A DNA stretch of 29,860 bases from a virus. The stretch spans positions 1 through 29,860 of the IMG/VR virus record IMGVR_UViG_3300044998_001424; one strand, given 5' to 3'. Position numbers and translations under genes: made by a program. Shown one piece after another: positions 4,828 through 29,860 of the stretch. Each line of letters opens with the position of its first letter. Position 1 is the first letter of the stretch. Below the pieces are notes generated by a model. The model saw only the letters and a program-made list of their open reading frames with translations, was not told where the DNA came from and ran no database searches.

Positions 4828-5079
4828 TCAGAGCATGCGGAACGTGGCCGGCGGCCCGCGCTCGGCGTCATGGCCGGCCGAGAGGTCCGGATAGCCGGCC
4901 TCGCGGCCGCACGCGCGCCAGAAGGTTCGGTAGAGCGCGAGGAGTTGCGGCAGCTGCCCCGGCGCATAGGAGACCTGGCGCTCGCCGAACGAGATCGAGG
5001 TCACCTGCTCGCCGGTGTTGAGCGCGATGATGGCGGCATAGAGCTTCTGAAGCTCGCTCTGGCAGTCGGGGGCGGGCAT
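4828..5079 (-). CDS. Head-tail joining protein, gpW-like
   Basis: The 83-residue protein has the size and pattern of the gpW family: an N-terminal helix with Leu-Gln-Lys-Leu-Tyr-Ala-Ala, a short beta hairpin around Gly-Glu-Gln-Val-Thr-Ser-Ile and a Gln-Val-Ser-Tyr strand, then a helix Leu-Pro-Gln-Leu-Leu-Ala-Leu-Tyr. gpW binds the portal and closes the DNA-filled head so that the tail connector can attach. It lies directly upstream of the portal gene, as W precedes B in lambda. The C-terminus is Gly/Pro/Arg-rich and longer than in lambda gpW. The ribosome site before the ATG at 5079 is weak (AAAGAG at long spacing). The 63-nt gap to the portal is GC-rich with imperfect inverted repeats. Confidence 0.8.
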   Translation of the reverse strand: MPAPDCQSELQKLYAAIIALNTGEQVTSISFGERQVSYAPGQLPQLLALYRTFWRACGREAGYPDLSAGHDAERGPPATFRML

Positions 5080-5198
5080 GGGTGTGCCATCTCTTTGAGC
5101 GTTGTGTCTTGTGAGACGCGGGAAGAGCCGCCGCCTTCGTCCGCGATCCCCGACGACGGCCTGGATGTCGCGGCCGAGATTTGATTGCGGGCCATCCC

Positions 5199-6158
5199 CT
5201 ACCGCGACGGCGTCTGGTAGCCCGAGACGCGCACGATGCGGCCGTTCTGGCGCCGCGTGTAGTCCTCGGTCATGCCGTCGCTTTCGACCTCGGCCGCGGC
5301 CGTGCGCGCCGAGCCCTGGTTCAAGGTCGTGGTCGTGCCCATCTCGCCCGCGACGCGATTGCCCGCCGCGCGCGCGACGGCGAGCCGCTCGGCCGCGCCG
5401 GCGGGCACCGGCGCGATGTCCGGCGTGCCGGACAGCCGGCCGACCGCCGCCACGGCCAGGGAGAAGCCGCCGCCGGTCAGGCTGTCGAGCACGCCCGTCG
5501 CCGCCCCCTTGAGCCCGTCCTGCTGGAAGCCCTGGAGGCCCTGGTAGGCGGCAAGCCCCACGGTCACGGGCACGAGCGCCTTGCTGAGCGTCGAGGCGGC
5601 GGCGCGCGCCGCCGGATTGGCGAGGATCTGCGCCGCCGTGACGCTCGCGTAGGTCGAAAGCCCGACCTCGGCGGCCTTCATGAGGCCCGAGGCGGGGGCC
5701 GCGGGGGCCGCGGGCGCTTGGGTTTCGTTCGCGCCGGTGCGCAGCGCCTCCTTCTGCCGGGCGACGCTCAGGAAGGCGGCGGCCGCCGGCGCCTGCCAGG
5801 CGTTGCGCGCGCGATTGCCCGCCGCCAGCGCGCCCTCGCCCTCATCGGGGTCGCCGAAGGCGTCGTGAAAGACCCTCTGGGCCTCGGGATTGACGTTGCG
5901 CGCGATGAGCTCCGGGACGGAGGGCGCCGCGGGCGCCGCCGCCCTCTCATCGGCCTTGGCGCTGCCGCCGAAGAGATTGACGGCATGCGCCGCGCCCGCC
6001 GCCACGGCGAGCGCGCCGGCGCGGCCGACGAGCCGGCCGCCCGTGCGGCTCACCCGCTCGACTGCCTCACCGGCCTTCATGAGGCCGAGGCCGGCGCCGG
6101 CGAGCAGCCCGCCCTCGCCGAGCCGGGTCAGCGTATCCTTGCGGTTGCGGTCGGCCAT
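5199..6158 (-). CDS. Ala/Gly-rich phage protein between terminase and gpW; possible internal virion protein
   Basis: I do not recognise this 319-residue protein. It is rich in Ala, Gly and Val with long hydrophobic stretches (about residues 12-30, 42-62 and 180-245), which could form membrane-active helices, and it ends in a polar Arg/Tyr/Thr tail. The start chosen is ATG 6158 because AGAGGTGAT lies 4-5 nt upstream. An earlier in-frame ATG at 6164 overlaps the terminase stop (TGATG) but has that site out of position. In lambda nothing of this size lies between A and W. An internal head or ejection protein would fit the position and hydrophobicity, but that is inference. There is no signal peptide. 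Confidence 0.6.
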   Translation of the reverse strand: MADRNRKDTLTRLGEGGLLAGAGLGLMKAGEAVERVSRTGGRLVGRAGALAVAAGAAHAVNLFGGSAKADERAAAPAAPSVPELIARNVNPEAQRVFHDAFGDPDEGEGALAAGNRARNAWQAPAAAAFLSVARQKEALRTGANETQAPAAPAAPASGLMKAAEVGLSTYASVTAAQILANPAARAAASTLSKALVPVTVGLAAYQGLQGFQQDGLKGAATGVLDSLTGGGFSLAVAAVGRLSGTPDIAPVPAGAAERLAVARAAGNRVAGEMGTTTTLNQGSARTAAAEVESDGMTEDYTRRQNGRIVRVSGYQTPSR

Positions 6159-6163
6159 GGGCA

Positions 6164-8017
6164 TCACCTCTGGAAGACGTCGGCGAGATCGGCGAGCGAG
6201 CGCACGGCGACCTCGCCGAGGAGCTGGCGCCGGCGCGCCTCGTAGTCGATCGAGAGCGCGTAGCGCGCCGCCATCGCGCCGACGAAGGTGTCGAGCGCCT
6301 CGTTGCGCCGGCCCGCCACCGGCACCCATCGGCGCTTGGGCCAGCCGCCGACGAACTCGACCTTGAGCCGCTCGGAGCCGACCAGCTGCTCGAAGTAGTC
6401 GGGCTCGAGATGGCGGGGAAAGTGCACCCGGTAGTGCGAGCCGGGGATGTCGGGATCGGGCTTAGCCGCGAGCTCCTGGAAGAGCAGCGTCTTGCCGTCG
6501 TCGACGCCGACGAGATGAAGTTTCGCCCCGAACTTGAAGCGCTCGTCCGACTGGCGGATGATCGGCTTGCCTTCGCCCGCGACGCCGCGCACCGCGTAAT
6601 AGGGCTTGAAGGCGGCTTTCGCCTCGCGCACGAACTCGAGCACGAGCTGCTGCTGGTAGCCGGCGTCGATCGCGACCGCCTCGAGATAGAGCGTGTGCCC
6701 GGTCGGATGGCGGAACGTGCGGGTGAGCAGCTGCGCCTCCATCGCGCGCCAGTTCTGCACGACCGAGGTGTCGGCGTAATGGCGCGCGTAGTCGAGCACC
6801 CACTTCACGTCTTCGGCACCCCAGCCGAGATATTGCGCCTCCCAGCGGTCGTGCTGCACGTCGACGTGCGCCGTGATGAGCAGCACCCCGTCGGGCACCG
6901 TGTAGGAGCCGTCGGCCTGGGGCCCGTAGTCCTCGCGGCGCTGATAGAGCTCTTCGGGCGTCGTCCTCGGTCCCTTGGTCGGATTGTAGGTGCGCCCGAG
7001 CTTCAGGTTGATGAAGGTCTGCTCCTCGGCGGGCTTGCCTTCGACCTCTTCCCATTCGGCGGCGAGCTCGGCCATGGTTACCCAGGGCGAATAGATCGCC
7101 CAGCAATAGAAGCCGGCGATGCCGTTGAACTGCGCGCGCGGGCGCCAGTGGCCGTGACGGACCGCGAGCTGCACCTGCCGCTGATCCCAGGCCGCGTCGC
7201 ACTCCGGGCAGTGATAGCGCGCCGTGGCGGGATCGCCGCGCGTCCAGCGCACCTGCTCCCATTCGAGCGCCTGGAAGGCACCGCAGGCGTGGCAGGGCAC
7301 CTCGAAGTGGCGCTGATCGGAGCGGCGGAACCAGTCCTCGATGTGGCTGAAGCCCTCGAGCGTCGGCGTCGAGGCGAGGATCTTCTTGCGGTTCCAGAAA
7401 TTCTGCGCGCGCTGAAACCCCTGCTTGATCGGATCGCCGTCGGCGCCGATGTTGGCCTTGTACTTGTCGATCTCGTCGAACATGACGATCCGGCGCGGCC
7501 TGGACGCGAGCGAGGCCGGCGAGTTGGCGCCGGCGAAGACGACGTCGCCGCCGGGATAGGCCTTCTCGAGGATCGTGTTGGCCGAGGTGCGCGCCTGCCG
7601 GCCGATGCGCTCGGCGAGCGCCGGGGTTGCCTCGCACGTCGGCACGAAGCGCTTCGTTGAGAAGCTCTCGGCGAGCTCGAGCGTCGGCAGCACCAGCATC
7701 TGCGGCGCCGGGTCCTGGTCGATGTAGTAGCCGAGCGCGTTGATGAGGACTTCCGTCTTGCCGACCTGGCTCGACATCTTGAGCACGACGATCTCGATGT
7801 CGGGGTCGGCGGGCGCGTCCATGGGCTCGCGCAGGTAGGGCGTGCGGTCGGTGCGCCAGCGTCCGGGCTCGGGGCCGGTGCCGCGCGCGATCTGGCGCTT
7901 GGCGTCGGCCCACTGCGAAATCGTCTGGCGCGGCGGCAGCTCGAGGCCCATGTGCCAGCCGCTCGGCGCCCCGCCGCCGGCGGCGGCCGTGATTTTCGTC
8001 ACGCTCCGGGGGGTCAT
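6164..8017 (-). CDS. Terminase large subunit, lambda gpA family
   Basis: The 617-residue protein packages phage DNA into the prohead and cuts the concatemer. The N-terminal ATPase shows a Walker A (Ser-Ser-Gln-Val-Gly-Lys-Thr-Glu, about 82-89) and Walker B (Ile-Val-Met-Phe-Asp-Glu-Ile-Asp, about 177-184). A zinc-ribbon-like insert has Cys242/Cys245 and Cys270/Cys273. The C-terminal RNase H-like nuclease shows acidic residues Asp386 in His-Val-Asp-Val and Asp451 in Ala-Ile-Asp-Ala-Gly. These are standard features of the lambda/GpA terminase family. The start at ATG 8017 is chosen because it overlaps the small-subunit stop (ATGA). A longer reading frame upstream lacks support. Confidence 0.95.
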   Translation of the reverse strand: MTPRSVTKITAAAGGGAPSGWHMGLELPPRQTISQWADAKRQIARGTGPEPGRWRTDRTPYLREPMDAPADPDIEIVVLKMSSQVGKTEVLINALGYYIDQDPAPQMLVLPTLELAESFSTKRFVPTCEATPALAERIGRQARTSANTILEKAYPGGDVVFAGANSPASLASRPRRIVMFDEIDKYKANIGADGDPIKQGFQRAQNFWNRKKILASTPTLEGFSHIEDWFRRSDQRHFEVPCHACGAFQALEWEQVRWTRGDPATARYHCPECDAAWDQRQVQLAVRHGHWRPRAQFNGIAGFYCWAIYSPWVTMAELAAEWEEVEGKPAEEQTFINLKLGRTYNPTKGPRTTPEELYQRREDYGPQADGSYTVPDGVLLITAHVDVQHDRWEAQYLGWGAEDVKWVLDYARHYADTSVVQNWRAMEAQLLTRTFRHPTGHTLYLEAVAIDAGYQQQLVLEFVREAKAAFKPYYAVRGVAGEGKPIIRQSDERFKFGAKLHLVGVDDGKTLLFQELAAKPDPDIPGSHYRVHFPRHLEPDYFEQLVGSERLKVEFVGGWPKRRWVPVAGRRNEALDTFVGAMAARYALSIDYEARRRQLLGEVAVRSLADLADVFQR

Positions 8018-8535
8018 GGGATGGGCGTCGTCTCGGCGATCTGGGCCGCGTCCTCTTGCAGTTCCCGGATCAGCGCCTCGCATTCATCGACGATGACGGT
8101 CATGGCCTCTGCGGGAACGAAGTTGGCGATGCGGGCGGGCAGGCCAAGGATGCGGTCGCGCAGCTTGCGCGCGATCTCGAACTCGCGGGCGCGCACCTCA
8201 TCGCGCAGGATGTAGAGGCCGGCCCTGATCTTGTAGTCGAGCTCGGCGCGGTCGGCATGCGCGAGCTCCTTGCGGGTGCGGGCCTCGGCGAAGCTCACGA
8301 CCGGGCCCTGGCCGGAGCCGGCGGCGAGCTCGCCGGTGCGGCCGGCATCGTAGGCGGCCCGTCGGCCGGCATCGAGGCTCGCCTGATACTGGGCCTTGGC
8401 CTTCTCGAGATCGATGCCGGCGGGCGTCTCGTCGATGCGGCCCTCGCGGATCAGCTTCTCGAGCCGCTGGCGGCTGATGCCGAGGGCCTCGGCGACCTTC
8501 CGCCGGCTGACGAAGGTCTTGCGCGCGTCACTCAT
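8014..8535 (-). CDS. Terminase small subunit, Nu1-like DNA-binding protein
   Basis: The 173-residue protein starts with a winged helix-turn-helix: Ser-Arg-Arg-Lys-Val-Ala-Glu-Ala-Leu-Gly-Ile-Ser-Arg-Gln-Arg (about 9-23) followed by a Leu-Ile-Arg-Glu-Gly-Arg-Ile segment, then charged helices and a C-terminal region that would contact the large subunit. Small subunits of this type recognise the packaging site (cos or pac). It directly precedes and overlaps the large subunit. The ATG at 8535 is preceded by GCAGGCAT, a modest ribosome site. A TTG four codons upstream is a weaker alternative. The 159-nt region upstream, free of genes, is AT-richer and could hold a late promoter or the packaging site. 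Confidence 0.85.
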   Translation of the reverse strand: MSDARKTFVSRRKVAEALGISRQRLEKLIREGRIDETPAGIDLEKAKAQYQASLDAGRRAAYDAGRTGELAAGSGQGPVVSFAEARTRKELAHADRAELDYKIRAGLYILRDEVRAREFEIARKLRDRILGLPARIANFVPAEAMTVIVDECEALIRELQEDAAQIAETTPIP

Positions 8536-8694
8536 ATGCCTGCACAACGACTCGTCTTTTTGAAGTTTTCAACACCTTGACTTGCAACGCATTTTCCACA
8601 GCCGACTCTACTCAAATTCGGCGCGCAGCGTCGGCCGCGGCGGCCGCGCCGGCGGAGAGGGACCCGCAGAAATGGGCGGGCGCGAACTCTTGGG
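8536..8694. other. Gene-free stretch upstream of terminase; possible late promoter or packaging region
   Basis: Between the stop of the Z-like gene and the terminase small subunit lie 159 nt without a gene. The half nearest the terminase is clearly AT-richer than its surroundings and contains the short inverted repeat TTGAA-GTT-TTCAA (8560-8572). A near-DnaA-box TTTTCCACA lies around 8591. The other half is extremely GC-rich (GGCCGCGGCGGCCGCG). Packaging sites of lambda-like phages sit near or in the terminase small subunit gene, so this is a reasonable place to look for one. No function is shown by the sequence alone. Confidence 0.3.
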
Positions 8695-9591
8695 TCAGCG
8701 GGCCCTGGCGATCTCGACCGCCATCAGGCGCGCCGCCTCGCGGGCGACGACGGCGCCGGCTGCCGACACCTTGGCCTGGACCTCGGCCTGATGCCGCTCG
8801 ACCTCCCGGGCGAGGTTCGGTCCCCAGATCGGCATGACTTTCTTGCGTGATTTGTCGGTTGGCTTGACCCGTCGAAAGACGGGCTTGCGTCCGGGCAACA
8901 TGAAGGTCCGCACGGCCAACTGAGGCTTGTTCCAGGCCGCATGGGTCGCGCCAGGGTTACGGCGGCTCCAGGACGCACCGTAATACTCGCGTGTAATCGT
9001 GGTGTGACCGCTCTGGACACTGAGCACACCGACCAGAAACTCCGGCTTGGCCGGCAAAATCTTGAAGCTCTGGTGAATCTTCCGCTGCGCCTTGAGGCCG
9101 GTCCATTGCGACACGTCGCGCCTGAGCCCCGTGCGCAGCGTCATGAGACCGTGGTTGATGGCTCGCGAGATCACGAGCCGGCCCTTGGTGAGCCGCGTAT
9201 AGATGCCGATGAAGCCCTTGGCGAGCCGCTCCATGTCGGTGAGATCGACGACGATGCCGGGCGCATCATAAGCATACGCCGCCTTGCGCGGATGACGGTC
9301 AGACGCGAACGTCATGCCGCCCGCACCATACGCCAGCAGGCGATCTCGGTGCAGCCGGCGCGCCTGCGCCATCGTCACGTCGGCATAGACGATTTTGTCG
9401 GGCCGGAGATCAAAGCCGAACGATCCTGGCCCCTGCCCAGGACCACCTGACACGCCGAAAGCGCCGCGGTAGCCCTTCGCGGTCGTCGCAGACATGGCGA
9501 CGGCACGCTCGCGGCTGATGGCGACGCGATACCGGCTGCGGCCGTCGAAGGAGCGTCTCGGAGACGATCTCCGTTCGCCGTCGTCCGCCAT
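8695..9591 (-). CDS. Putative minor tail protein, gpZ-like
   Basis: The 298-residue basic protein has a C-terminal pattern like prophage minor tail protein Z: a Phe-Met-Leu-Pro-Gly-Arg-Lys-Pro-Val-Phe-Arg-Arg strand (about 230-241), a Met-Pro-Ile-Trp-Gly-Pro-Asn segment (about 255-261), then a long helix with Ala-Arg-Glu-Val-Glu-Arg-His. In lambda gpZ acts in tail completion. The N-terminal 100 residues are unlike lambda gpZ and I do not recognise them. The start ATG 9591 overlaps the previous stop (TGATG), so no ribosome site is needed. The position upstream of terminase is unusual for a tail gene. Assignment is by pattern only; a head-completion role is an alternative. Confidence 0.45.
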   Translation of the reverse strand: MADDGERRSSPRRSFDGRSRYRVAISRERAVAMSATTAKGYRGAFGVSGGPGQGPGSFGFDLRPDKIVYADVTMAQARRLHRDRLLAYGAGGMTFASDRHPRKAAYAYDAPGIVVDLTDMERLAKGFIGIYTRLTKGRLVISRAINHGLMTLRTGLRRDVSQWTGLKAQRKIHQSFKILPAKPEFLVGVLSVQSGHTTITREYYGASWSRRNPGATHAAWNKPQLAVRTFMLPGRKPVFRRVKPTDKSRKKVMPIWGPNLAREVERHQAEVQAKVSAAGAVVAREAARLMAVEIARAR

Positions 9592-9785
9592 CACGTCCCC
9601 CTGGCGGCGCGGCGGGCGAGCGCGCGCGCCCGGGCGATGGCGTAGGCCCGCGCGGCCTCGAGGTCTTCCGCCACCGAGCGCGTGGCGCGTTCGAGCTCGG
9701 CCTTGGCGTCGCCGCCGCGGCCTTCGGCAATGGCGATGGCGGCGGCGATGAGCGCTGCGCGCCGTTCGGCGCACTGACAGGGCAT
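9591..9785 (-). CDS. Small hypothetical protein, Ala/Arg-rich
   Basis: The 64-residue protein begins Met-Pro-Cys-Gln-Cys-Ala-Glu-Arg-Arg, a Cys-X-Cys start followed by two amphipathic helices rich in Ala, Glu and Arg. Small proteins of this type (N-terminal Cys pair, Ala-rich helices) are common next to head and tail genes in alphaproteobacterial prophages, but I know no function for them. Its stop overlaps the start of the Z-like gene (TGATG), which supports it being real and coupled. The ATG at 9785 has no clear ribosome site, so the start is uncertain. Confidence 0.5.
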   Translation of the reverse strand: MPCQCAERRAALIAAAIAIAEGRGGDAKAELERATRSVAEDLEAARAYAIARARALARRAARGT

Positions 9786-10066
9786 GATGCTGGCTCGGGT
9801 TGTGGCGGATGGCGGCTCCGCTTCTGGGTCGCCGGAGCGGATCACCGAAATGAAAACGCCCGGGCGGTCGAACCGTCCCGGGCGCAACTCCCGCAAGAGT
9901 AGCGATTCGATAGCGCATTTCACCGATTCTGCCAACGCCCAAGCGCGTACCAAGCCGCGATCTCAGACGTGTGAGTCTCTGGCGCAACACTTGGGCCGCG
10001 CGGGCGCCGCCGGCGACGGGCGCAGACTCGACCGTCAAACCATGCGGCAGCCGAAGACGGGCAGAC
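9786..10066. other. 281-nt intergenic region
   Basis: Apart from the terminator near 9853-9884, I see no gene here. Short open frames on both strands lack ribosome sites and recognisable content. If the head operon has its own promoter it should lie in the part left of the terminator, but no convincing -35/-10 pair is visible. Confidence 0.5.
9853..9884 (-). terminator. Intrinsic terminator on the minus strand
   Basis: Arms CGCCCGGG (9857-9864) and CCCGGGCG (9877-9884) pair over 8 bp, extended by CGGT/ACCG with one bulge and a 3-nt CGA loop. On the minus strand the hairpin is followed directly by TTTTC (A-run 9853-9856 on plus). It would end transcription coming from the membrane-protein gene at 10067-10333 before the head operon, separating accessory from late transcription. 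Confidence 0.75.
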
Positions 10067-10333
10067 TCAATCCTGCCGGAACAGTCCGTTCGCGCAGCCC
10101 GACCACGACCGTCGCCAAACCGTCTCGCCGATGACGCCGGCGATGCCCGAGCCCGCGAACACGGCGAGAATGACCCAGGGCGCATGGGGCCCGTGCAGCC
10201 AGGCCGCCGCGCCGATGCCGGTTGCATATGAGGCGGTCAGGACCGCCTGCCCGACGAGGAGCCCCCAGAGCAAGAACGCGCGCGTGTGCAGCCACGCGGA
10301 AACTGCCCGTTCCCTCGACCTCTGTCCGCTCAT
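10067..10333 (-). CDS. Small inner-membrane protein with two TM segments; holin-like
   Basis: The 88-residue protein has a basic N-terminus, a hydrophobic segment around residues 17-43 and a second around 48-70, then a short charged tail. The ATG at 10333 has GGAGG with a 5-nt spacer, which fixes the start; an upstream ATG at 10345 overlaps that site. Two TM helices with charged ends fit class II holins, but no lysin gene lies nearby, and the gene is isolated between a terminator and a divergent regulator. It may instead be an accessory membrane protein of the island. Holin function is only a guess. Confidence 0.6.
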   Translation of the reverse strand: MSGQRSRERAVSAWLHTRAFLLWGLLVGQAVLTASYATGIGAAAWLHGPHAPWVILAVFAGSGIAGVIGETVWRRSWSGCANGLFRQD

Positions 10334-10418
10334 GCGACCCTCCATCGTGCCCCGTGCGTCAAGATTTTCCTCACACGACCTCTGGTCATGGTCAAAATTC
10401 CGTTCCAAGATAAAACGC

Positions 10419-10435
10419 CACTTGGTCAACAAGTG
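10419..10435. promoter_or_regulatory. Perfect 17-bp palindrome between divergent genes, candidate operator
   Basis: CACTTG-GTCAA-CAAGTG has perfect 6-bp arms and a 5-bp spacer. It lies in the 203-nt divergent space between the membrane-protein gene and the XRE regulator gene, where autoregulation by that regulator would act. The geometry (6-5-6) is the same as the CI operator of this prophage but the sequence differs, so it is probably a site for a different repressor, most simply the XRE protein next to it. Confidence 0.5.
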
Positions 10436-10536
10436 ACAACTGCCGGAATGCGCTTGCTGATTGTTGGTTCCGCGCGAGCGGGACCGCACTGCCCTGCCGC
10501 CCGGTTTGGTGTGTACATGCGTTTTGGTGGGTGGGC

Positions 10537-10833
10537 ATGTCAGCCATCGATAAGCACATCGGCCGGCGGTTGTCGGAACGCTGCGCGGAGCTTGGCCTCA
10601 CGCTTGAGGAGCTGGCGGCGCAGATCCAGGTGAGCCGCGTGGAGCTCGCCGGCATTATGCAGGGCCGTCGCCGCGCCGGGGCGGATTTTCTCCTGCGCGC
10701 CTGCGCCGCTCTCGAAGTGGGACCGCGCTACTTTTTTGCCGGTCTCGAGCTCGACGAGACGGAGAAGGCCGATCTGAGCAACGTCGTCGATCTGGCACGC
10801 ATCCTGCGCAGCCGCGGCAGGCGTCGCCGGTAG
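10537..10833 (+). CDS. Small XRE-type helix-turn-helix regulator
   Basis: The 98-residue protein has an N-terminal XRE HTH: Ile-Gly-Arg-Arg-Leu-Ser-Glu-Arg-Cys, Leu-Thr-Leu-Glu-Glu-Leu-Ala-Ala-Gln-Ile and a recognition-helix region Val-Ser-Arg-Val-Glu-Leu-Ala-Gly-Ile-Met (about residues 8-45), a conserved Gly-Arg-Arg-Arg loop, and a last helix ending near Tyr-Phe-Phe-Ala. The tail is short and polyarginine-ended, so there is no S24 or ligand domain. Start ATG 10537 is preceded only by a G-rich stretch. It probably represses itself and the divergent membrane-protein gene through the palindrome at 10419-10435 (inference). Confidence 0.8.
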   Translation: MSAIDKHIGRRLSERCAELGLTLEELAAQIQVSRVELAGIMQGRRRAGADFLLRACAALEVGPRYFFAGLELDETEKADLSNVVDLARILRSRGRRRR

Positions 10834-10965
10834 CGACCTGCGGCATGCACATATAGAAGACGCGCCATGCTGCAATTTGCAGTGGAAACTGGCGCCTCAT
10901 TTCCCTCGAATCAACCACTCGTCAGCATCCTCCTCGGTGTCGCCAACGCCAACGGGAGGTCTGCC

Positions 10966-11781
10966 ATGACCGAAGCCGAGACACAAAGCGCGTCCGCGTC
11001 CCCAGAGCACCTCGAGAACCCAGAGTTCATATCTTCGATCGACATCCGGCACGGGCCGCGCGAACTGCTCGTGCCCTACTTCCTCGATCTCGACGCCGAC
11101 CTCTTCCGGCGCGGCGTGCGGGTCGAGCTCGCGCCGGCGAGCGCGCTCCTGGCTGTCAATGAAGCGAACCGCGACAGCTGGCTGCCGCTTTTTCCGGCCT
11201 TCCGCACCGAGTATTGCCCCGACCTCGACCAGCATGCGTTTGCGCTTTTGGGCCGCGACGCGGACGGCACGGTGATCGCGACGCAGGCGGTGCGCCGCTA
11301 CGATTTCACCGGCACGAGCTTCAAGGCGGAAATCGAGTCGCTGCGCCTGCTTTACGGCGATCGCATTCCGCCGGCCCAGCGCGGTGAGCGCTGGATGGCC
11401 ATGGCGCCAACAGCAAGCTTCTTCACCGGGGTCCATGGCTTTACCGGTGCCGTCTGGTACCACCCGCGCGCCCGCGGCCGCGGCATCGCTGGTAGGTTGC
11501 CGCCGCTCGGCCGCGCCGTGGCCCTGGCGCTGTGGGGCATCGACGGCACCATCACGCTGATGTCGCAGAAGAACATCGACGCCCGGCTGCACCTGCGGTC
11601 CGGCCAGCGCAACTTCGAGCCCGGCATCCATGCCCGGGGCAGCACCCACGGCGACGTCGACTACACGCTTTGCTGGATGAGCCGCAGCGACATCCTGACC
11701 GCGATCGCCGAGCGGCTAGCGGCCAAGCCGGATCGCGCCCACGTTGGGGCGCGTGACGCCAAGGAGGCGCGTGGCGGATAA
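10966..11781 (+). CDS. GNAT-like acyltransferase-fold protein
   Basis: The 271-residue protein has a cofactor-loop pattern typical of GNAT acetyltransferases, Arg-Ala-Arg-Gly-Arg-Gly-Ile-Ala-Gly (about 166-175), after a strand Ala-Val-Trp-Tyr-His-Pro. Upstream strands include Phe-Ala-Leu-Leu-Gly-Arg-Asp with Val-Ile-Ala-Thr-Gln-Ala-Val, compatible with the central sheet. The substrate is unknown. Start ATG 10966 is set by GGGAGG 6 nt upstream. An ORF reading 33 codons further upstream lacks a site. Its last 66 nt overlap the convergent PAS-like gene. It could be a host gene picked up as a passenger. Confidence 0.5.
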   Translation: MTEAETQSASASPEHLENPEFISSIDIRHGPRELLVPYFLDLDADLFRRGVRVELAPASALLAVNEANRDSWLPLFPAFRTEYCPDLDQHAFALLGRDADGTVIATQAVRRYDFTGTSFKAEIESLRLLYGDRIPPAQRGERWMAMAPTASFFTGVHGFTGAVWYHPRARGRGIAGRLPPLGRAVALALWGIDGTITLMSQKNIDARLHLRSGQRNFEPGIHARGSTHGDVDYTLCWMSRSDILTAIAERLAAKPDRAHVGARDAKEARGG

Positions 11782-12714
11782 GGGCACGATCAGCCGCTGG
11801 TAGGAGAGGAACGCGCGCCCCCGGGCCGTCTCGGTGACGGCGTCGACCTGATAGAGGCTCGGGGCGCCGCGCCGCGCGACGTCAAGGTAGTCCTCGGCCA
11901 CCGTCCGCCAGTAGGTGGTATCGCGCAGTGCAATCAATGGCTTGCCGAGCGGTGTCACTTCATCCTCGAAGACGTTATAGCCCGGGCCGACGACTGCGAT
12001 CCTGAAGTCGGACTTGCCGAGGCGATCGAGCACGATGAAGCGGCCGTCGAAGATCGCGTCGAGCCGTGCCGTGAGTTCGGTGAGCGCGCCGTTGGCGGCG
12101 AAGGCCATGGCCATGCGCGCGGCGAGATCGAAGGCCGGGTCGGCCTCGAGCGCCGGGTTTGGCAAGCGCTTGCTGAAGACGCGTCGCGGTCCGCTGTTTG
12201 CGTCCTCGGAAAACCATGGACCCAGGAAGTCGAGGACGGCCCAGCCGTTCGAGAATGCTCTCTCGAGGAACCGGTCGCCGAAATAGACGTTAAGGGTGTA
12301 GCGCGCCTCCGCCCGGTCGCCGAGCCAGTAGAGCAGTTCGAACGCCACCTTGGGGGGCACCTTGTCGGGCGCCAGCGTGACCTGCCAAGCGTCCGGCCCG
12401 CCCTCGAGACAAACGCAACCGAGGTTGCAACAGAGGAAGTCCGTCAGCTGCGGCTCATCAAGACGCGAACGTTCGCGCAAGGCCGCCCATTCGCCAGCTG
12501 CCAGTCCCAAGAACGTTCGCACGCGCTCAATCAGCCCCGCCCGGGGCTCCCCGCTGCACTCTCCCTGGCGACGTGGGGAACAGCCTTTCGTTCCGCTCGC
12601 GCTGCCGGGAAGTCGCCGACTTTGCCCTCTCGGCCGCGACACCGGTCTCAATGACCAGAAGCGGCCATCACTAGTTCGTAGGTCAGACAACTTATCCCCG
12701 TCCGCGTGCCACAT
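11716..12714 (-). CDS. PAS-like sensory or regulatory protein, function unknown
   Basis: Up to 332 residues. The C-terminal 150 residues look like a PAS fold of the type found in alphaproteobacterial stand-alone sensors: a Phe-Ile-Val-Leu-Asp-Arg strand, a Phe-Arg-Ile-Ala-Val-Val-Gly strand, Thr-Pro-Leu-Gly-Lys-Pro-Leu, and a final Tyr-Gln-Arg-Leu-Ile-Val-Pro-Leu-Ser strand. The first 60 or so residues from ATG 12714 are Arg/Ser/Gly-rich and unconvincing, so the real start may be GTG 12522 (268 residues). The tail overlaps the GNAT-like gene antisense by 66 nt. No kinase or DNA-binding part is visible. Confidence 0.5.
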   Translation of the reverse strand: MWHADGDKLSDLRTSDGRFWSLRPVSRPRGQSRRLPGSASGTKGCSPRRQGECSGEPRAGLIERVRTFLGLAAGEWAALRERSRLDEPQLTDFLCCNLGCVCLEGGPDAWQVTLAPDKVPPKVAFELLYWLGDRAEARYTLNVYFGDRFLERAFSNGWAVLDFLGPWFSEDANSGPRRVFSKRLPNPALEADPAFDLAARMAMAFAANGALTELTARLDAIFDGRFIVLDRLGKSDFRIAVVGPGYNVFEDEVTPLGKPLIALRDTTYWRTVAEDYLDVARRGAPSLYQVDAVTETARGRAFLSYQRLIVPLSATRLLGVTRPNVGAIRLGR

Positions 12715-12728
12715 GCTACCAAAAAGGT

Positions 12729-12740
12729 CACATCGATGTG
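12729..12740. promoter_or_regulatory. Perfect 12-bp palindrome, candidate operator
   Basis: CACATCGATGTG is a perfect palindrome. It lies in the 47-nt space between the divergent starts of the PAS-like gene (if it starts at 12714) and the small helical gene at 12762, just upstream of the GGAGG ribosome site of the latter. The position suits an operator. No cognate regulator can be named. Confidence 0.4.
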
Positions 12741-12761
12741 GATGATCGACGGAGGCAATCG

Positions 12762-13028
12762 ATGCGAAGCGCAGACGAGGTGCTTGCCGATGGCGTGGCG
12801 GTGGCGCTTTTGCCGGAAGATCAGCGCTCAGCGCTTAATCGCGCCGAGCTAGAGGCGCGCGTGGAGGAGCTGCGCGGCATTCGCGACCTTGCGGCATACC
12901 TCCTCGGCGTGTGCGGCATGGCGCTTGGCGAGGGCAGGGCGCTCTATGAGCGTGGCGCAACCAACGTGTCGGACATGCCGGAGAGGCTCGGCCTCCTCGC
13001 GGCGCGCGCCTCGCCGACGCGGCACTGA
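12762..13028 (+). CDS. Small helical protein, function unknown
   Basis: The 88-residue acidic protein is predicted mostly helical. A heptad-like Leu/Ala/Glu segment (about 28-45: Leu-Asn-Arg-Ala-Glu-Leu-Glu-Ala-Arg-Val-Glu-Glu-Leu) could form a coiled coil, followed by a hydrophobic helix Ala-Ala-Tyr-Leu-Leu-Gly-Val-Cys-Gly-Met-Ala. The start ATG 12762 is set by GGAGG with a 6-nt spacer. I do not recognise a family. It stands alone on the plus strand ahead of the DUF1828 module, with a 106-nt gap. Confidence 0.6.
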   Translation: MRSADEVLADGVAVALLPEDQRSALNRAELEARVEELRGIRDLAAYLLGVCGMALGEGRALYERGATNVSDMPERLGLLAARASPTRH

Positions 13029-13134
13029 GGCGAGCCTTGAGGTCGTGTCACAGTTTGAGATCTGACGCTGTTGACCTGGCTCTGCCGGGTGCCAAGTCCC
13101 ATGCTATGCTTAACTCAAAGCACCAACTCAGATC

Positions 13135-13368
13135 ATGCCAGCAGGACCGAACGGCGAGAAACGACCTGCCGGTGTCATCGGCAACACTGTCACAGCCATG
13201 AGAGTCGCGGCCGGAGAGGAAGTAGGCAAGACTGACGACGGCAAGCCCGTCATCACCACCAGCACAATCGAAGACTATTTCAACATCTTCAAGCGAGGCA
13301 TGACGGGCGTTGTCGGGAAGCGCCTCACATATCGGGGAACTGACGAGAGCCAGGAGGGCGGCACATGA
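13135..13368 (+). CDS. Chimeric small ORF with ISXO2/IS1595 transposase C-terminal remnants
   Basis: The 77-residue ORF joins unrelated pieces. Residues about 10-36 (Arg-Pro-Ala-Gly-Val-Ile-Gly-Asn-Thr-Val, then Val-Ala-Ala-Gly-Glu-Glu) resemble the N-terminus of a widespread small alphaproteobacterial protein with a Asp-Val-Ile-Gly-Asn-Ala motif. Residues 43-57 (Ser-Thr-Ile-Glu-Asp-Tyr-Phe-Asn-Ile-Phe-Lys-Arg-Gly-Met) match the catalytic-glutamate region of ISXO2-type DDE transposases, and 61-67 (Gly-Lys-Arg-Leu-Thr-Tyr-Arg) match their C-terminal end. The roughly 40-70 residues normally between are missing, in frame. It cannot be an active transposase. Its stop overlaps the next start (ATGA). 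The ATG has no clear ribosome site. It may be a decaying fragment or a retained small protein. Confidence 0.55.
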   Translation: MPAGPNGEKRPAGVIGNTVTAMRVAAGEEVGKTDDGKPVITTSTIEDYFNIFKRGMTGVVGKRLTYRGTDESQEGGT

Positions 13369-13838
13369 CCACCCTCAAGAGCATCATTCGAGGTGCAAAG
13401 ACAAACCTTGATGTGGGAAAGTGGGTGCGCGGTCACATTCCTCGCAATGTGTTCCCAATGTCGAGGGTCAAGGACAAGCGCTACAAATATGGCCCTGAGT
13501 ACGCGTGGCGCGTGGTCAAGTTCGAGGCCGAGGGGCATCAGTGCCGGATTCTGATCCTTTTGAACGAAGATAAGGAAATTCTACGCGCCCGCCTTGGCGT
13601 TGAAGTCAACGGCGACATGGTCGTTTTGTCTGATTTTGAGTTCCACGCGAGCGAACCAGGTTGGCACTGCCACGTCGCGCTAAAGCCGATATCGCAACTG
13701 GGATCTGGTGCCGCCAGACACAACGCCAAGAAGTGGCCGAAAGCCTCGTCGCGAAACGAATTTGGCGTCGATGCGGCGAGCGCGTTGAGCGTAGTGGCAA
13801 AGTACTATAACTTCCAAGCTCAAGGTGAGCTGATATGA
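13365..13838 (+). CDS. Hypothetical protein paired with DUF1828/DUF1829 gene
   Basis: I do not recognise this 157-residue protein with certainty. It is a mixed alpha/beta protein with strands Cys-Arg-Ile-Leu-Ile-Leu-Leu-Asn-Glu (about 59-67), Leu-Gly-Val-Glu-Val-Asn-Gly-Asp-Met-Val-Val-Leu (about 77-88), and a His-Cys-His-Val motif near 100-103 that could bind metal. Similar proteins occur next to DUF1828 genes in my memory, but I cannot verify that. ATG 13365 overlaps the preceding stop and its own stop overlaps the following start, both ATGA, so the three genes are translationally coupled. GC is lower than in the head and replication genes, suggesting transfer. Confidence 0.7.
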   Translation: MTTLKSIIRGAKTNLDVGKWVRGHIPRNVFPMSRVKDKRYKYGPEYAWRVVKFEAEGHQCRILILLNEDKEILRARLGVEVNGDMVVLSDFEFHASEPGWHCHVALKPISQLGSGAARHNAKKWPKASSRNEFGVDAASALSVVAKYYNFQAQGELI

Positions 13839-14638
13839 AGTTGAACGAACTCTGCGAGGCACTTTGCTCCGGCTTGGCGCTGCGCGAAGTCAAGATCGGA
13901 TATGCGGTTAAGACCCCGTTCAGGTTGCCGGACGGTGACTCTATCGGGCTCTACATCCGCCGTGATGACGCGAACCCTCAACTGCTGCGGCTTGAGGACG
14001 ATGGCGGCACAATTGCTGCTCTTGAGGAGGATGGCGTGTCGTTCGCGACCGAGTCGCGATCTGACGCGCTTGCCGACCTTCTAAAGCAGTACGACGCGCA
14101 CTACGACGACGCGGCGAGCGTGATTTACACTGACTATGTTGATGAGAGTCGGGTTCCGGCGAACTTCGTGAAGTTCATGGCGTTGATGCTGCGTCTACAG
14201 GACTTGCGAATGCTTGCGCAAGAGCGAGTTCGCGAAGTCTTTAAGGATGACGTGCGCGAGCTGGTAGAGCAGCATTTTAAAGGACGCGTCGACATTCGTG
14301 AGGACGCGAACCCGAACGAGACGCTCAAGGACTACGTCGCGGACTTTGTTCTGAAATCGGAGTCTGGAGCAACCCTTGCGCTATTCGCAGCGTCCTCCGA
14401 GACGAAAGCGCTTGAATCTCTACTGCTTTGGCAGGAGCTGCGGAATCGCGGGGTGGAAGATGTTCGCAGCATGGCGCTGTTCGACGGTCCAAAACCGCAG
14501 CGCATCAAGGCGCGGACAATGTCGCGCCTCATGAACAGCGAAGTTGTTCTGGGAACGCTGGAGGGTGACCGATGGGAATTGGCTCAGAAGATCGGAAAGA
14601 CAATAAAGGTGATGCCGCTGAAAGCCGCGATCAACTAA
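13835..14638 (+). CDS. DUF1828/DUF1829 domain protein
   Basis: The 267-residue protein has an N-terminal DUF1828 signature: Lys-Thr-Pro-Phe-Arg-Leu-Pro-Asp-Gly-Asp (about 25-34), an Ile-Gly-Leu-Tyr-Ile-Arg strand, and Leu-Glu-Asp-Asp-Gly-Gly-Thr-Ile (about 52-59). The second half, with Asp-Tyr-Val-Ala-Asp-Phe-Val-Leu (about 166-173) and later Ala-Leu-Phe-Ala-Ala-Ser strands, fits DUF1829, whose pattern recalls restriction-endonuclease-like folds with an Asp-Phe-Val strand. No function is established to my knowledge. It is coupled by ATGA to the upstream gene and ends a compact three-gene unit in the accessory island, the usual place for phage-borne defence or toxin-antitoxin genes. Confidence 0.8.
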   Translation: MKLNELCEALCSGLALREVKIGYAVKTPFRLPDGDSIGLYIRRDDANPQLLRLEDDGGTIAALEEDGVSFATESRSDALADLLKQYDAHYDDAASVIYTDYVDESRVPANFVKFMALMLRLQDLRMLAQERVREVFKDDVRELVEQHFKGRVDIREDANPNETLKDYVADFVLKSESGATLALFAASSETKALESLLLWQELRNRGVEDVRSMALFDGPKPQRIKARTMSRLMNSEVVLGTLEGDRWELAQKIGKTIKVMPLKAAIN

Positions 14639-14915
14639 AGCCTCTCAGGGATGCGGAGACGTTCGGCGAATGCGGCTACGGAAGAAGGAGACTGGTGCGC
14701 CCCGGCCCGATCCTGCCGAGTGGCGAAGATGCTCCCATCCCTTGGGGAGCCGCCCGTCTCGGGAGCCGTGCTGAACACAGCTTCGGGTTGTTCCGGTGCT
14801 TCGCACCCGCAATAAAAGCACTCCCATAGAGCGAATCGAGACTCAAGCCTTATTCGGCTTCTTGCTGTGGACCAGCAACGAAGCATCCCTGCAGCGCGGA
14901 CGCTCAATCCCCACC
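14639..14915. other. 277-nt gene-free region between convergent blocks
   Basis: No gene is supported here. It separates the plus-strand DUF1828 unit from the end of the leftward early operon, so terminators are expected from both sides. Visible inverted repeats are GCTCCC-N8-GGGAGC (14731-14750) and GGTGC-TTC-GCACC (14795-14807), neither followed by a U-tract. Open frames on both strands lack ribosome sites. Confidence 0.5.
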
Positions 14916-15299
14916 TCACCCCCACCCCGCCGCGTGGCGGGCGGCCGCGCGCCAGTCGGCCTCCGAGTGCAATTCAACGCGCGCCATTCCGGCGGCGGCG
15001 GCAATGGTGGCGGCGGCGGCGCCGACCGACATGGCGACGCACGAGCCTTTGAGCAGCTGGTTGCGGCCGCGCGCCAGCTCGAGCGCCTGGCGCACGACGC
15101 GCTCGGCAAGGAGCCTGTCCGCCGCGAACACGACGTGACGCGGCGCGACGGTCTCGGGGTGCATGGTCTGCATCTGCTTGACCATCGCCGCGACGTCGGT
15201 CGTCACGCCGATGCGCAGCCACGCGCCCGCCTCGTAGCCGAGCACGACGATCGCCGCCCAGCCGAGCCGGGCCGCGCCTTGCCGCAGCGCGCGATCCAT
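14916..15299 (-). CDS. Small protein, possible degenerate GIY-YIG-like fold
   Basis: The 127-residue protein has a strand-loop-strand pattern (Tyr-Glu-Ala-Gly-Ala-Trp-Leu-Arg-Ile-Gly-Val-Thr-Thr, about 22-34), then a helix, His-Val-Val-Phe, and Leu-Ala-Glu-Arg-Val-Val-Arg-Gln-Ala-Leu-Glu, which recalls GIY-YIG/T5orf172-type domains where Arg and Glu in these places are catalytic. The defining Gly-Ile-Tyr is missing, so the match is weak. The ATG 15299 has a GGGGGGA upstream at a longer spacing. It ends the leftward early operon and lies 46 nt after the DUF6362-like gene. Likely function: unknown. Confidence 0.45.
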   Translation of the reverse strand: MDRALRQGAARLGWAAIVVLGYEAGAWLRIGVTTDVAAMVKQMQTMHPETVAPRHVVFAADRLLAERVVRQALELARGRNQLLKGSCVAMSVGAAAATIAAAAGMARVELHSEADWRAAARHAAGWG

Positions 15300-19222: not shown

Positions 19223-19738
19223 TCACCGCATCGGCTCGAGCGCCTTGCGGCAGGGCCGCGCCACGATCTCGCAGCGCGTGCGCCAGACGTCGCCGCCCGA
19301 GAGCGCCTCGACGGCGCGCCCGGCGGCGGTCTCATTGGTCTCGGCGCGGGCACAGCGGTGGCGGGCGTCGCGGGCCTGACGGATGTCGGTGTAGAGCTCG
19401 CCCCAGTCGTGCCGGGCGAGCGCCTGCCAGTGGCGGATGGCGCTCTCCAAGGCGGCGGCTTCCGTCGCATGCGGCGTGCCGACGGCGCGCTGCGGGGCGA
19501 GGCAGTGGGCGTCGCCGGCCGCGACCGGCGCGACCTTGACCCAGGCCTGGACGCGCGGCGCCTCCCGGAAATGCCGGCGCACCGTCGGGCGCGCGATCGG
19601 CCGCTCGGCCACGTGACTCCGCGGGCCCGCCCAGGTCGCCGGATCGGCGTAGACGTTGTCGCCCGCGCCCGCCGGCCCGGCGAACGCGAGGAGGACGGCG
19701 AAGAGGGCCGGGGGATGCCAGACGCGGCTGCAAGTCAT
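19223..19738 (-). CDS. Secreted protein with signal peptide, inside the early operon
   Basis: The 171-residue protein starts with a classic signal peptide: a short basic start, a hydrophobic core Ala-Leu-Phe-Ala-Val-Leu-Leu-Ala-Phe-Ala, and an Ala-Gly-Ala cleavage region near residue 26. The mature part is helical with several Cys (about residues 75, 127, 155 and 163), which may form disulfides in the periplasm. The ATG at 19738 overlaps the methyltransferase stop (ATGA). A periplasmic product is odd among replication genes. It may be a superinfection-exclusion or lysis-timing factor, but nothing in the sequence shows that. Confidence 0.6.
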   Translation of the reverse strand: MTCSRVWHPPALFAVLLAFAGPAGAGDNVYADPATWAGPRSHVAERPIARPTVRRHFREAPRVQAWVKVAPVAAGDAHCLAPQRAVGTPHATEAAALESAIRHWQALARHDWGELYTDIRQARDARHRCARAETNETAAGRAVEALSGGDVWRTRCEIVARPCRKALEPMR

Positions 19739-20388
19739 TGGGTCGCCTCCTCTTTGGACGCGTCGAACTTGCCCGCCTCGTCGCCGAAGGCGTCCCAGCC
19801 GGGCCGCGCGGCGCGCGCGAAGAGCTCGAGGCGGCGCGCGCCGGGCAGGAGCGCCTCGGCGGCGTGATAGGCGGCCTCGGGCTTCCTCGAATGCTGGCGG
19901 AGAGCGCCCATCACCACCGACCGCACGCCGCGCGCGAGCTTCGGTGAGCCCCGGATGCCGATGAGGAACGGCTCGTGCGCGTTCCGGAGGACGTAGCCCG
20001 TGCCGAAGGCGAGCTTGCCGCCCGAGGTCTCCTTGACCCACACGCCCGAGGTCGAGAAGCGGAAGCCCCAGCGCGCCACGATCTCGATCTGCATCGCGAT
20101 CCCCGGCGCGGTTCCCCACAGCCACAGCACGCAGTCGGGCGCGGCGAGCTCGGCGACGGGCAGCGCTGCGATCTCCGCCAGGCTCATCGTCCGGTAGTGC
20201 GCGGCCGGGCTTTTCCGGTAGGCCGGCGGCGGCCGCTCGCCGGGCGCGAGCGGCGACCAGAGCTCGAACGGCCAGGGCGGATCGGCCATGATGAGGTCGT
20301 AGGCCGACGGCGCGAGGCGGCCCCACGGCCAGTCGGCCCGGAGCGCGGGCCCGTCGAAGAGCATCGGTTGGCTTAGGGACCGGGGCAT
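19735..20388 (-). CDS. MT-A70-family DNA adenine methyltransferase
   Basis: The 217-residue protein carries the catalytic motif Asp-Pro-Pro-Trp at 36-39 in a Leu-Ile-Met-Ala-Asp-Pro-Pro-Trp strand, then Cys-Val-Leu-Trp-Leu-Trp-Gly-Thr (about 86-93) and a Lys-Pro-Glu region. This is the typical MT-A70 layout for N6-adenine methylation in phages. The product may modify phage or host DNA to avoid restriction or mark replication. Start ATG 20388 has ACGGAGGAGACC just upstream. An upstream in-frame extension overlaps the DnaA-like gene and lacks support. No restriction partner is adjacent. Confidence 0.88.
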   Translation of the reverse strand: MPRSLSQPMLFDGPALRADWPWGRLAPSAYDLIMADPPWPFELWSPLAPGERPPPAYRKSPAAHYRTMSLAEIAALPVAELAAPDCVLWLWGTAPGIAMQIEIVARWGFRFSTSGVWVKETSGGKLAFGTGYVLRNAHEPFLIGIRGSPKLARGVRSVVMGALRQHSRKPEAAYHAAEALLPGARRLELFARAARPGWDAFGDEAGKFDASKEEATQ

Positions 20389-20399
20389 GGTCTCCTCCG

Positions 20400-20879
20400 T
20401 CAGGGTCTGAGCACGATCGCGCCGTCGCGGCCGACGTAGCCTTGCGGCGTCTCCCACTTGCGGCCGATGCCCGGATCGAGCGGCCGCGGGCCAGACCAGG
20501 CGGCCGGTACGGACGCCGGGGCCGCCGGCACGGGCGCCGGGACCGGCCGCGCGGCCTCACGCCGCCGGACGACCGGCGGCGGGCGGCGCAGGATGGCGCG
20601 CGCCCGCTCGGCGAGCGCGCCGATGCGGGCGATGCGGTCTGAGGCCCAGCGCCCGCGGTCGATGGCCTGGAGGGCGTGCAGCACCGTCGTGTGATCGCGC
20701 CCGAGCACGCGGCCGATCTGCGGCAGCGAGAACTGCGCCTCGCGCGCGATCAGCACCACCGCCGCCCGCATCTCGACGAGCTCGGCCGAGCGCAAGCGCG
20801 AGGCGATCAGCCATTGCTCGGCCTCGGCGGCCTCGGCCACCGCCGCCAGGATGCGCCGGACCGTGATGCGCGGACTCAT
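20400..20879 (-). CDS. DnaA domain IV-like DNA-binding protein
   Basis: The 159-residue protein has the DnaA C-terminal DNA-binding domain signature: an Arg-Ala-Ala-Val-Val-Leu-Ile-Ala-Arg-Glu helix, Ser-Leu-Pro-Gln-Ile-Gly-Arg-Val-Leu-Gly (51-60) and the DnaA-box-binding motif Arg-Asp-His-Thr-Thr-Val-Leu-His-Ala (61-69). It has no AAA+ domain. The C-terminal half is Pro/Ala-rich with a short end module. Such stand-alone domain IV proteins could bind DnaA boxes and either load or block initiation (inference). ATG 20879 overlaps the upstream stop (ATGA). The following gene starts 11 nt downstream. Confidence 0.85.
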   Translation of the reverse strand: MSPRITVRRILAAVAEAAEAEQWLIASRLRSAELVEMRAAVVLIAREAQFSLPQIGRVLGRDHTTVLHALQAIDRGRWASDRIARIGALAERARAILRRPPPVVRRREAARPVPAPVPAAPASVPAAWSGPRPLDPGIGRKWETPQGYVGRDGAIVLRP

Positions 20880-29050: not shown

Positions 29051-29182
29051 AGCGCTAGCCTTCAGATTCGCTTATGCTCCTGCATCCACATTCTCGCCTT
29101 CATGTCAAGAGTGATTCATTTGACATTCAGGAATCGAATCGTATATGTGATGCATACCCGCTGGCAGCGTGCTGTCGGCTCG

Positions 29183-29228
29183 AAGGCCGTGCGAGGCAAG
29201 TGCCTCGGGCGGCCTTTGTGGTTTTTGA
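29183..29228 (+). terminator. Strong hairpin with following T-rich tract, between integrase and NYN gene
   Basis: AAGGCCG (29183-29189) and CGGCCTT (29210-29216) form an outer stem, CGAGGCA (29192-29198) and TGCCTCG (29201-29207) an inner stem, with one 2-nt mismatch on each side and a 2-nt AG loop. TTTGTGGTTTTT follows. This fits an intrinsic terminator for the integrase transcript; it could also be part of an attachment site. It argues against the NYN gene starting at 29102. Confidence 0.6.
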
Positions 29229-29236
29229 GATGCGCG

Positions 29237-29860
29237 ATGCGGGTCGTAGTCTACATCGATGGCTTCAATCTTTACTACCGCGCCCTTAAAGGAACTCGGT
29301 ATAAGTGGTTGAACCCGCTCAAGCTATCAGAGCGCCTTCTTGATGACGGCGACGAGATAGGGCTCATACGCTATTTCACCGCTCGCGTCAGCGCGAGGGC
29401 GGGCGATAAAGGTGCGCCTCGACGCCAACAAATTTATCTCAACGCCCTTAAGTCCGTGCCGCAAGTCAAGTTTCACTTCGGAAGATTCCTCCCGAAGAAG
29501 AAGCGAAGGCCGTTAGTGAGTACGGGACAATTTGTCGAGATACACGACACGGAGGAAAAGGGTTCGGATGTCAACCTGGCCACTCACCTTCTCAATGATG
29601 CGTGGAAGGCCGACTTCGGCCTCGCCCTCGTATTGTCGCAAGATACCGACCTAGTCGAGACCATAAGAATCGTGACGCAAGAACGTCGGTTGAAGGTCGG
29701 TTTAGTCTGGCTTGACGGCCGGCAGCCCAACAATCAGCTTGCGAAGGTCGCTTCTTTCGTTCGCCACGTAAAGCCCGCAGATCTAGCTGCCTCCCAATTT
29801 GATGAAGCAATAACACTCGATGATGGCCGAGTCATCTCTCGCCCGCCGGAGTGGCGGTGA
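29237..29860 (+). CDS. NYN-domain protein (PIN-like putative RNase)
   Basis: The 207-residue protein starts with the strand Arg-Val-Val-Val-Tyr-Ile-Asp-Gly-Phe-Asn (Asp8), and carries Lys-Gly-Ser-Asp-Val-Asn-Leu (Asp111) and Leu-Ser-Gln-Asp-Thr-Asp-Leu (Asp136, Asp138), the acidic residues of NYN/LabA nucleases, which cut RNA in other members. The start at ATG 29237 is chosen because the NYN fold begins there. An earlier in-frame start at 29102 would read through the hairpin. Base composition is lower in GC than the integrase. It lies outside the int gene, so it may be a host gene next to the insertion site or a phage passenger. The stop codon is at the window end. Confidence 0.85.
   Translation: MRVVVYIDGFNLYYRALKGTRYKWLNPLKLSERLLDDGDEIGLIRYFTARVSARAGDKGAPRRQQIYLNALKSVPQVKFHFGRFLPKKKRRPLVSTGQFVEIHDTEEKGSDVNLATHLLNDAWKADFGLALVLSQDTDLVETIRIVTQERRLKVGLVWLDGRQPNNQLAKVASFVRHVKPADLAASQFDEAITLDDGRVISRPPEWR

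Follow-up and report, generated by a model that had tools for sequence, protein, structure and literature searches.

We found that a 29,860-nucleotide stretch of viral DNA (IMG/VR virus record IMGVR_UViG_3300044998_001424, positions 1 to 29,860; 'the window' hereafter) carries a two-gene unit, A-B, that probably, to judge from sequence comparisons, helps its host cell to stop other viruses. The explanation we prefer, and to which we give an even chance, is that A-B is a mobile, self-contained and strongly diverged alphaproteobacterial cousin of the candidate defence system PDC-M24, carried as prophage cargo, in which A would act as the effector and B as its regulator or sensor.

Layout of the locus and its functional unit

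As the earlier note had described, three plus-strand ORFs (77, 157 and 267 aa) are chained in the window by two ATGA overlaps, the first at 13365-13368 and the second at 13835-13838:

13135..13368, plus strand: small ORF, 77 aa; chimeric (ORF list; matches to an RNA-binding protein and to an IS1595 transposase)
13310..13311: left junction of the passenger, inside the small ORF; beyond it L056, a sibling phage of 96% identity, is no longer homologous
13365..13838, plus strand: gene A, 157 aa; proposed effector, no family in Pfam, NCBIfam or PADLOC
13835..13838, plus strand: overlap of A stop and B start (ATGA); the same overlap is kept in most relatives
13835..14638, plus strand: gene B, 267 aa; DUF1828 protein related to PDC-M24B, proposed regulator or sensor

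Two other statements of that note held. The GC content is low (0.567-0.572 over 13.0-14.5 kb vs. ~0.65-0.78 for most of the window), and the genes stand between late and early phage blocks of the opposite strand, with terminase (late) to the left and ParB-like and early genes to the right. A search for a sigma-70-like promoter in window 12700-15100 found none.

The three genes had also been taken for a single module, and this is where our analysis departs from the note. Residues 1 to 29-37 of the small ORF match small 'RNA-binding protein' genes of alphaproteobacteria (e.g. Mesorhizobium), and the second half corresponds to an IS1595 transposase C-terminus that has an internal gap; the label 'transposase-derived' thus suits the second half of this ORF and not its N-terminus. 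The small ORF is missing from all other A-B loci examined, and we rejected a three-gene module on the strength of this lack of conservation and of the IS1595 origin of the second half. On sequence grounds the small ORF is a recombination or boundary scar outside the functional unit, which consists of the last two genes, A and B.

Over window 5880-13310 the sibling phage L056 shares 96% identity with the window phage; at 13310 the similarity breaks off abruptly. L056 retains a longer C-terminal half of the IS1595 transposase (PF12762, E 3.7e-11), and behind this remnant a different ORF (L056:1-258, minus strand) stands in place of A-B, which is absent from the available L056 sequence (its contig reaches only 430 bp beyond the left junction, too little to place the right-hand end of the window passenger). 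Because the break falls inside the small ORF, we infer that A-B arrived by exchange at a transposase-derived anchor, or through recombination inside it, and the site behind this IS1595-derived anchor looks like an exchangeable cargo slot.

A and B are paired and diverge together

A directly precedes B in all ~26 contigs with an A-type locus, mostly with the ATGA overlap, and A was found only beside B; the co-occurrence check proposed in the note therefore came out in favour of a pair that is adjacent everywhere. These loci, recovered by profile scans, lie in alphaproteobacterial phages (IMG/VR) and genomes (Chelativorans, Novosphingobium, Sphingomonas); IMG/VR scans with a single A or B sequence returned nothing, and alignments were needed to find relatives. 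Of 385 alphaproteobacterial genomes, four contain close-type B; these four, and no others, contain A, next to B each time. Rhizobium phage RHph_N28_2 has an S24 repressor followed by A (23-24% identity) and then by B (34%), which overlap by 4 bp as they do in the window. The A and B distances are correlated (Mantel r 0.95, 0/5000 permutations), and both genes are under strong purifying selection (dN/dS 0.04-0.12 for A and B in diverged comparisons). Broken copies also occur: in L026, B is frameshifted with its C-terminus broken and A is intact, and in G018 and L053, A is interrupted by TGA and B is intact.

Such a pair could be a toxin-antitoxin addiction system, with A as toxin and B as antitoxin, whose benefit would lie in maintaining the prophage or transposon and not in defence. 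We consider this unlikely. The two genes are small and overlap, prophages and a transposon carry them, A never occurs without B whereas B homologues also partner other A families, and in another case a DUF1829 protein has a HipA-family toxin as its partner (PMC13092281); yet an antitoxin is usually small and DNA-binding, whereas B is larger than A, has two domains and no recognisable helix-turn-helix (HTH), L026 keeps A intact beside a broken B, and relatives sit within type I restriction-modification (R-M) operons. The three broken copies also count against our preferred defence reading, and L026 fits a simple lethal-toxin view poorly.

Mobility and genomic placement of A-B

One chromosomal locus (L052) contains an intact IS1595-family transposon, 2522 bp in all, that carries A-B and no other cargo and has an 8-bp target duplication (CATATTTC) at both sides; rejoining the flanks gives one open frame through the empty site. 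The parts of the transposon, in L052 coordinates, are:

5387-6301: transposase (PF12762 and PF12760)
5325-5347 and 7824-7846: terminal inverted repeats (TIRs), 23 bp, 22 identical

Because A and B travel here as the sole cargo, the minimal transferable unit is A+B without the small ORF. The gene halved by this transposon (4962-5375 and 7825-8196, minus strand) encodes 'LLDILGF...SDAFIVS...RGVIHVGE', and its N-terminal half has no Pfam match.

Compared with IS1595 transposons that carry passengers, L052 thus has A-B between TIRs with an 8-bp duplication, whereas the window has only a C-terminal fragment of the transposase and no matching TIR (the search covered the L052 type, at up to 5 mismatches, with other IS1595 TIR types outside it). 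The inverted repeats that flank the copies in the window, in L051 and in L053 look coincidental. L011 has a convergent IS1595 transposase and an A gene that is truncated at its 5' side; no TIR pair was found there. That the locus is a passenger, as the note had proposed, is borne out by the end of L056 homology at 13310, by the lack of A-B in the available sequence of that phage and by the IS1595 cargo of L052.

An S24 repressor lies directly ahead of A-B in five prophages (L001, L004, L005, L007, L023), and small HTH proteins precede it in three further prophages (L024, L025, L027). Genes expressed in the lysogen are expected behind a prophage repressor, and we count these copies in favour of the defence reading. 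RexAB of phage lambda, a pair of cargo genes that comes right after the prophage repressor, as in several A-B relatives, offers a parallel in genomic placement, the sole feature compared. The same position would also suit a phage-intrinsic role, in which A-B would tune the lysogeny decision or, via the repressor, keep close relatives from superinfecting, without being a general defence; we judge this improbable, since the chromosomal copies (L051, L052, L053) and the transposon copy are distant from any phage repressor, the window pair is ~10 kb from its repressor and so outside the lysogeny operon, and cousin pairs sit in R-M operons. For the defence reading, too, the 10 kb that separate the window pair from the repressor are a point against.

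In the sphingomonad-type loci L004, L005, L007 and L023, similar ORFs follow immediately after B, and those of L005 (6789-7175) and L023 (6772-7170) match the HIRAN domain (PF08797). A HigB-like toxin ORF and an HTH ORF stand directly behind A-B in L053 (7944-8621).

Conserved features of A and B

The following features of the two proteins are placed on the window:

13638..13673, plus strand: A motif E92-x-H94-x(4)-G99-x-H101-x-H103, invariant in 13 diverged homologues
13850..14224, plus strand: B N-terminal domain, residues 6-130; DUF1828, predicted fold like type III secretion chaperones
14225..14614, plus strand: B C-terminal domain, residues 131-260; PD-(D/E)XK-like predicted fold, without E-x-K
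14342-14344, plus strand: B D170, invariant in the family alignment

The earlier note had called A unrecognised, and indeed A has no family match in Pfam, NCBIfam or PADLOC, nor does it match the PDC-M24A or DUF6978 models at E 1. Nine positions are invariant across 13 diverged A homologues, and five of them (E92, H94, G99, H101, H103) span 12 residues of one predicted beta-hairpin, which we propose as a putative metal-binding or catalytic site. The A model has no clear match in PDB or BFVD (Foldseek, VIA), which does not imply a novel fold, and because of this the enzymatic role suggested for A derives solely from the motif. No meaningful hit came up when solved structures were searched by sequence with profiles of A, B, DUF6978 and DUF1828/1829.

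B matches DUF1828 (PF08861) in Pfam (E 1.8e-14), and the PADLOC model PDC-M24B matches its residues 18-147 of 267 (E 4.9e-18); Pfam recognises no HTH in it. The description of B as a DUF1828/DUF1829 protein holds in Pfam for the first domain only, DUF1829 going undetected there, though in profile comparison (hhalign) the B family and DUF1828-DUF1829 proteins align across 219 columns (E 9.8e-17). The AlphaFold2 model of B (pLDDT 87.9) has two domains. Residues 6-130 resemble the type III secretion chaperones SycN-YscB, SicP and CesT (VIA Z 6.8-8.2, moderate) and 3cxj, an uncharacterised archaeal protein (Z 8.5, moderate).

The C-terminal domain of the model resembles the PD-(D/E)XK nucleases Can2, Cdn1, BstEII and EndoMS (Foldseek E 5.9e-4 for Can2 and 6.6e-4 for BstEII; VIA Z 8-9, moderate, rmsd 3.2-4.0 over 101-126 residues) and shows the alpha-beta-beta-beta-alpha-beta core, as a predicted fold with moderate Z. 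The nuclease-like second domain of the earlier note therefore stands as a predicted fold and not as an active nuclease, a reading that we dropped as unproven: strand 3 (180-185) is hydrophobic and has no catalytic (D/E)xK or E/Q-x-K, and the lysine is not conserved. In the homologue alignment D139 and D170 are invariant and E194 nearly so, K191 is present in about half, and the equivalent Asp varies to N or E in DUF1829 relatives of B. Because strand 3 lacks E-x-K, K191 is unconserved and the Asp varies in these relatives, lost catalysis is more likely for this predicted domain than a standard nuclease. If B nonetheless cut phage DNA, it would have to do so with an atypical site (D139, D170, E194) and with A as a specificity or safety factor, in a restriction-like system; the fold matches to Can2, BstEII and EndoMS, the conserved acidic residues and the cousin pairs in R-M operons speak for this alternative, but the lack of E/Q-x-K on strand 3, the half-conserved K191 and the Asp that itself changes to N or E make it quite unlikely in our view.

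Relationship to PDC-M24 and links to defence

PDC-M24 is a PADLOC candidate made up of PDC-M24A (DUF6978, PF22398) and PDC-M24B (DUF1828/DUF1829, PF08861/PF08862). The PDCs, most of which lack validation, come from a guilt-by-embedding approach (PMC12988326); PDC-M24 itself is unvalidated. Both it and A-B have a small upstream gene adjacent to a DUF1828-type downstream gene, A first; B is homologous over nearly its full length, an R-x-[DEN]..H..H-x-H motif lies at a like position in A, and PDC-M24 of Streptococcus phage Javan249 is located in the lysogeny module, as are several prophage copies of A-B. In contrast, no PDC-M24A or DUF6978 model detects A, Pfam does not detect DUF1829 in B, and the A hairpin is of a compact, invariant E-x-H-x-S-H-P-G-x-H-x-H type, whereas PDC-M24A has a longer D..H-x-N..P-H-V-H. 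Because A goes unrecognised as PDC-M24A, which together with its unmatched fold counts against the defence reading, we place A-B, which would work in the manner of PDC-M24, as a sister branch of that system and do not file it as a member.

B homologues partner three A families only: the window type, DUF6978 and a third family. This third family (L032, L033, L034) comprises proteins of ~155 aa with RYNGxxHxHGxIRYxxHxH, always upstream of a DUF1828 protein. Profile comparisons (hhalign) of A with DUF6978 (E 0.016, probability 2.8%) and of DUF6978 with the third family (E 0.017) are suggestive only. The R-x-[DEN]..H..H-x-H pattern is present in nearly every member of all three families, ending at ~0.6-0.7 of the length, a shared placement seen in about 1% of shuffles; exceptions include window A, which has Asp for Arg, and the Javan249 DUF6978, which lacks the pattern. 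We infer that the three belong to a single diverged family and share an active or metal site; A is probably, but not provably, related to DUF6978 (PDC-M24A).

The note had also suggested looking for defence genes near homologues, and relatives do cluster with them, in PADLOC PDC-M24 pairs and type I R-M operons. Two DUF6978-DUF1828/1829 pairs are flanked by hsdS and hsdR within type I R-M operons of alphaproteobacteria: the PDC-M24 pair of L048 (4285-12110) with both flanking genes identified by PADLOC models and PDC-S67 also present, and that of L047 (3773-11958) between hsdS- and hsdR-like ORFs identified by eye. One single ORF is a DUF6978-DUF1828-DUF1829 fusion with a shortened N-terminus, and one third-family pair lies after an Eco57I-like methylase ORF. 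That DUF1828/DUF1829 proteins have no established function, as the note had it, was nearly right, the exception being the DUF1829 partner in DS-6/HipAD, a HipA-like kinase with a DUF3037-DUF1829 protein that protects E. coli from phage (PMC13092281). Like A-B, that validated anti-phage system is a two-gene unit with a DUF1829-containing partner; unlike A-B, its effector is a kinase and the partner has DUF3037 in place of DUF1828 (PMC13092281).

Proposed mechanism

Taking as observed basis the genes and their overlaps, their invariable pairing, co-divergence, selection and mobility, the predicted fold of B and the invariant motif of A, we propose a defence unit with a toxin-antitoxin-like logic. 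A and B would be co-produced by coupled translation, and B would hold A inactive in a complex, probably through its chaperone-like N-terminal domain. The nuclease-fold, probably non-catalytic C-terminal domain of B might detect the nucleic acid of a foreign phage or some process of that phage, so that infection by another phage would lead B to release or activate A. The E-x-H/H-x-H site of A, perhaps by metal-dependent hydrolysis, would then damage an essential target and abort the infection.

A broader version of this proposal, which we regard as possible but somewhat unlikely, holds that A, a small beta-meander protein with a Glu/His-rich hairpin, represents a new enzyme family, and that DUF6978 and the third family are branches of the same effector superfamily, each restrained by B as a hub whose chaperone-like domain is joined to a dead nuclease domain that senses phage DNA. 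If true, this would amount to a modular immunity of one sensor and many effectors, spread by phages, R-M operons and IS1595 transposons. Distantly related bacteria have DUF1828/DUF1829 proteins in their phages, plasmids and R-M operons, yet the literature on these proteins is almost nil. A-B provides a minimal unit that matches exactly what one transposon carries, along with candidate active-site residues and a partner predicted to have two domains, which makes a candidate defence family directly testable; and since library searches miss A throughout this branch, current annotation undercounts the system.

Further genes of the window phage

A second candidate defence gene of the window phage encodes an NYN-domain protein (29102-29860, plus strand; PADLOC HEC-09 match, E 3.6e-46) directly after the integrase. 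The early region also encodes an MT-A70 adenine methyltransferase (19735-20457, minus strand; PF05063, E 4.3e-30).
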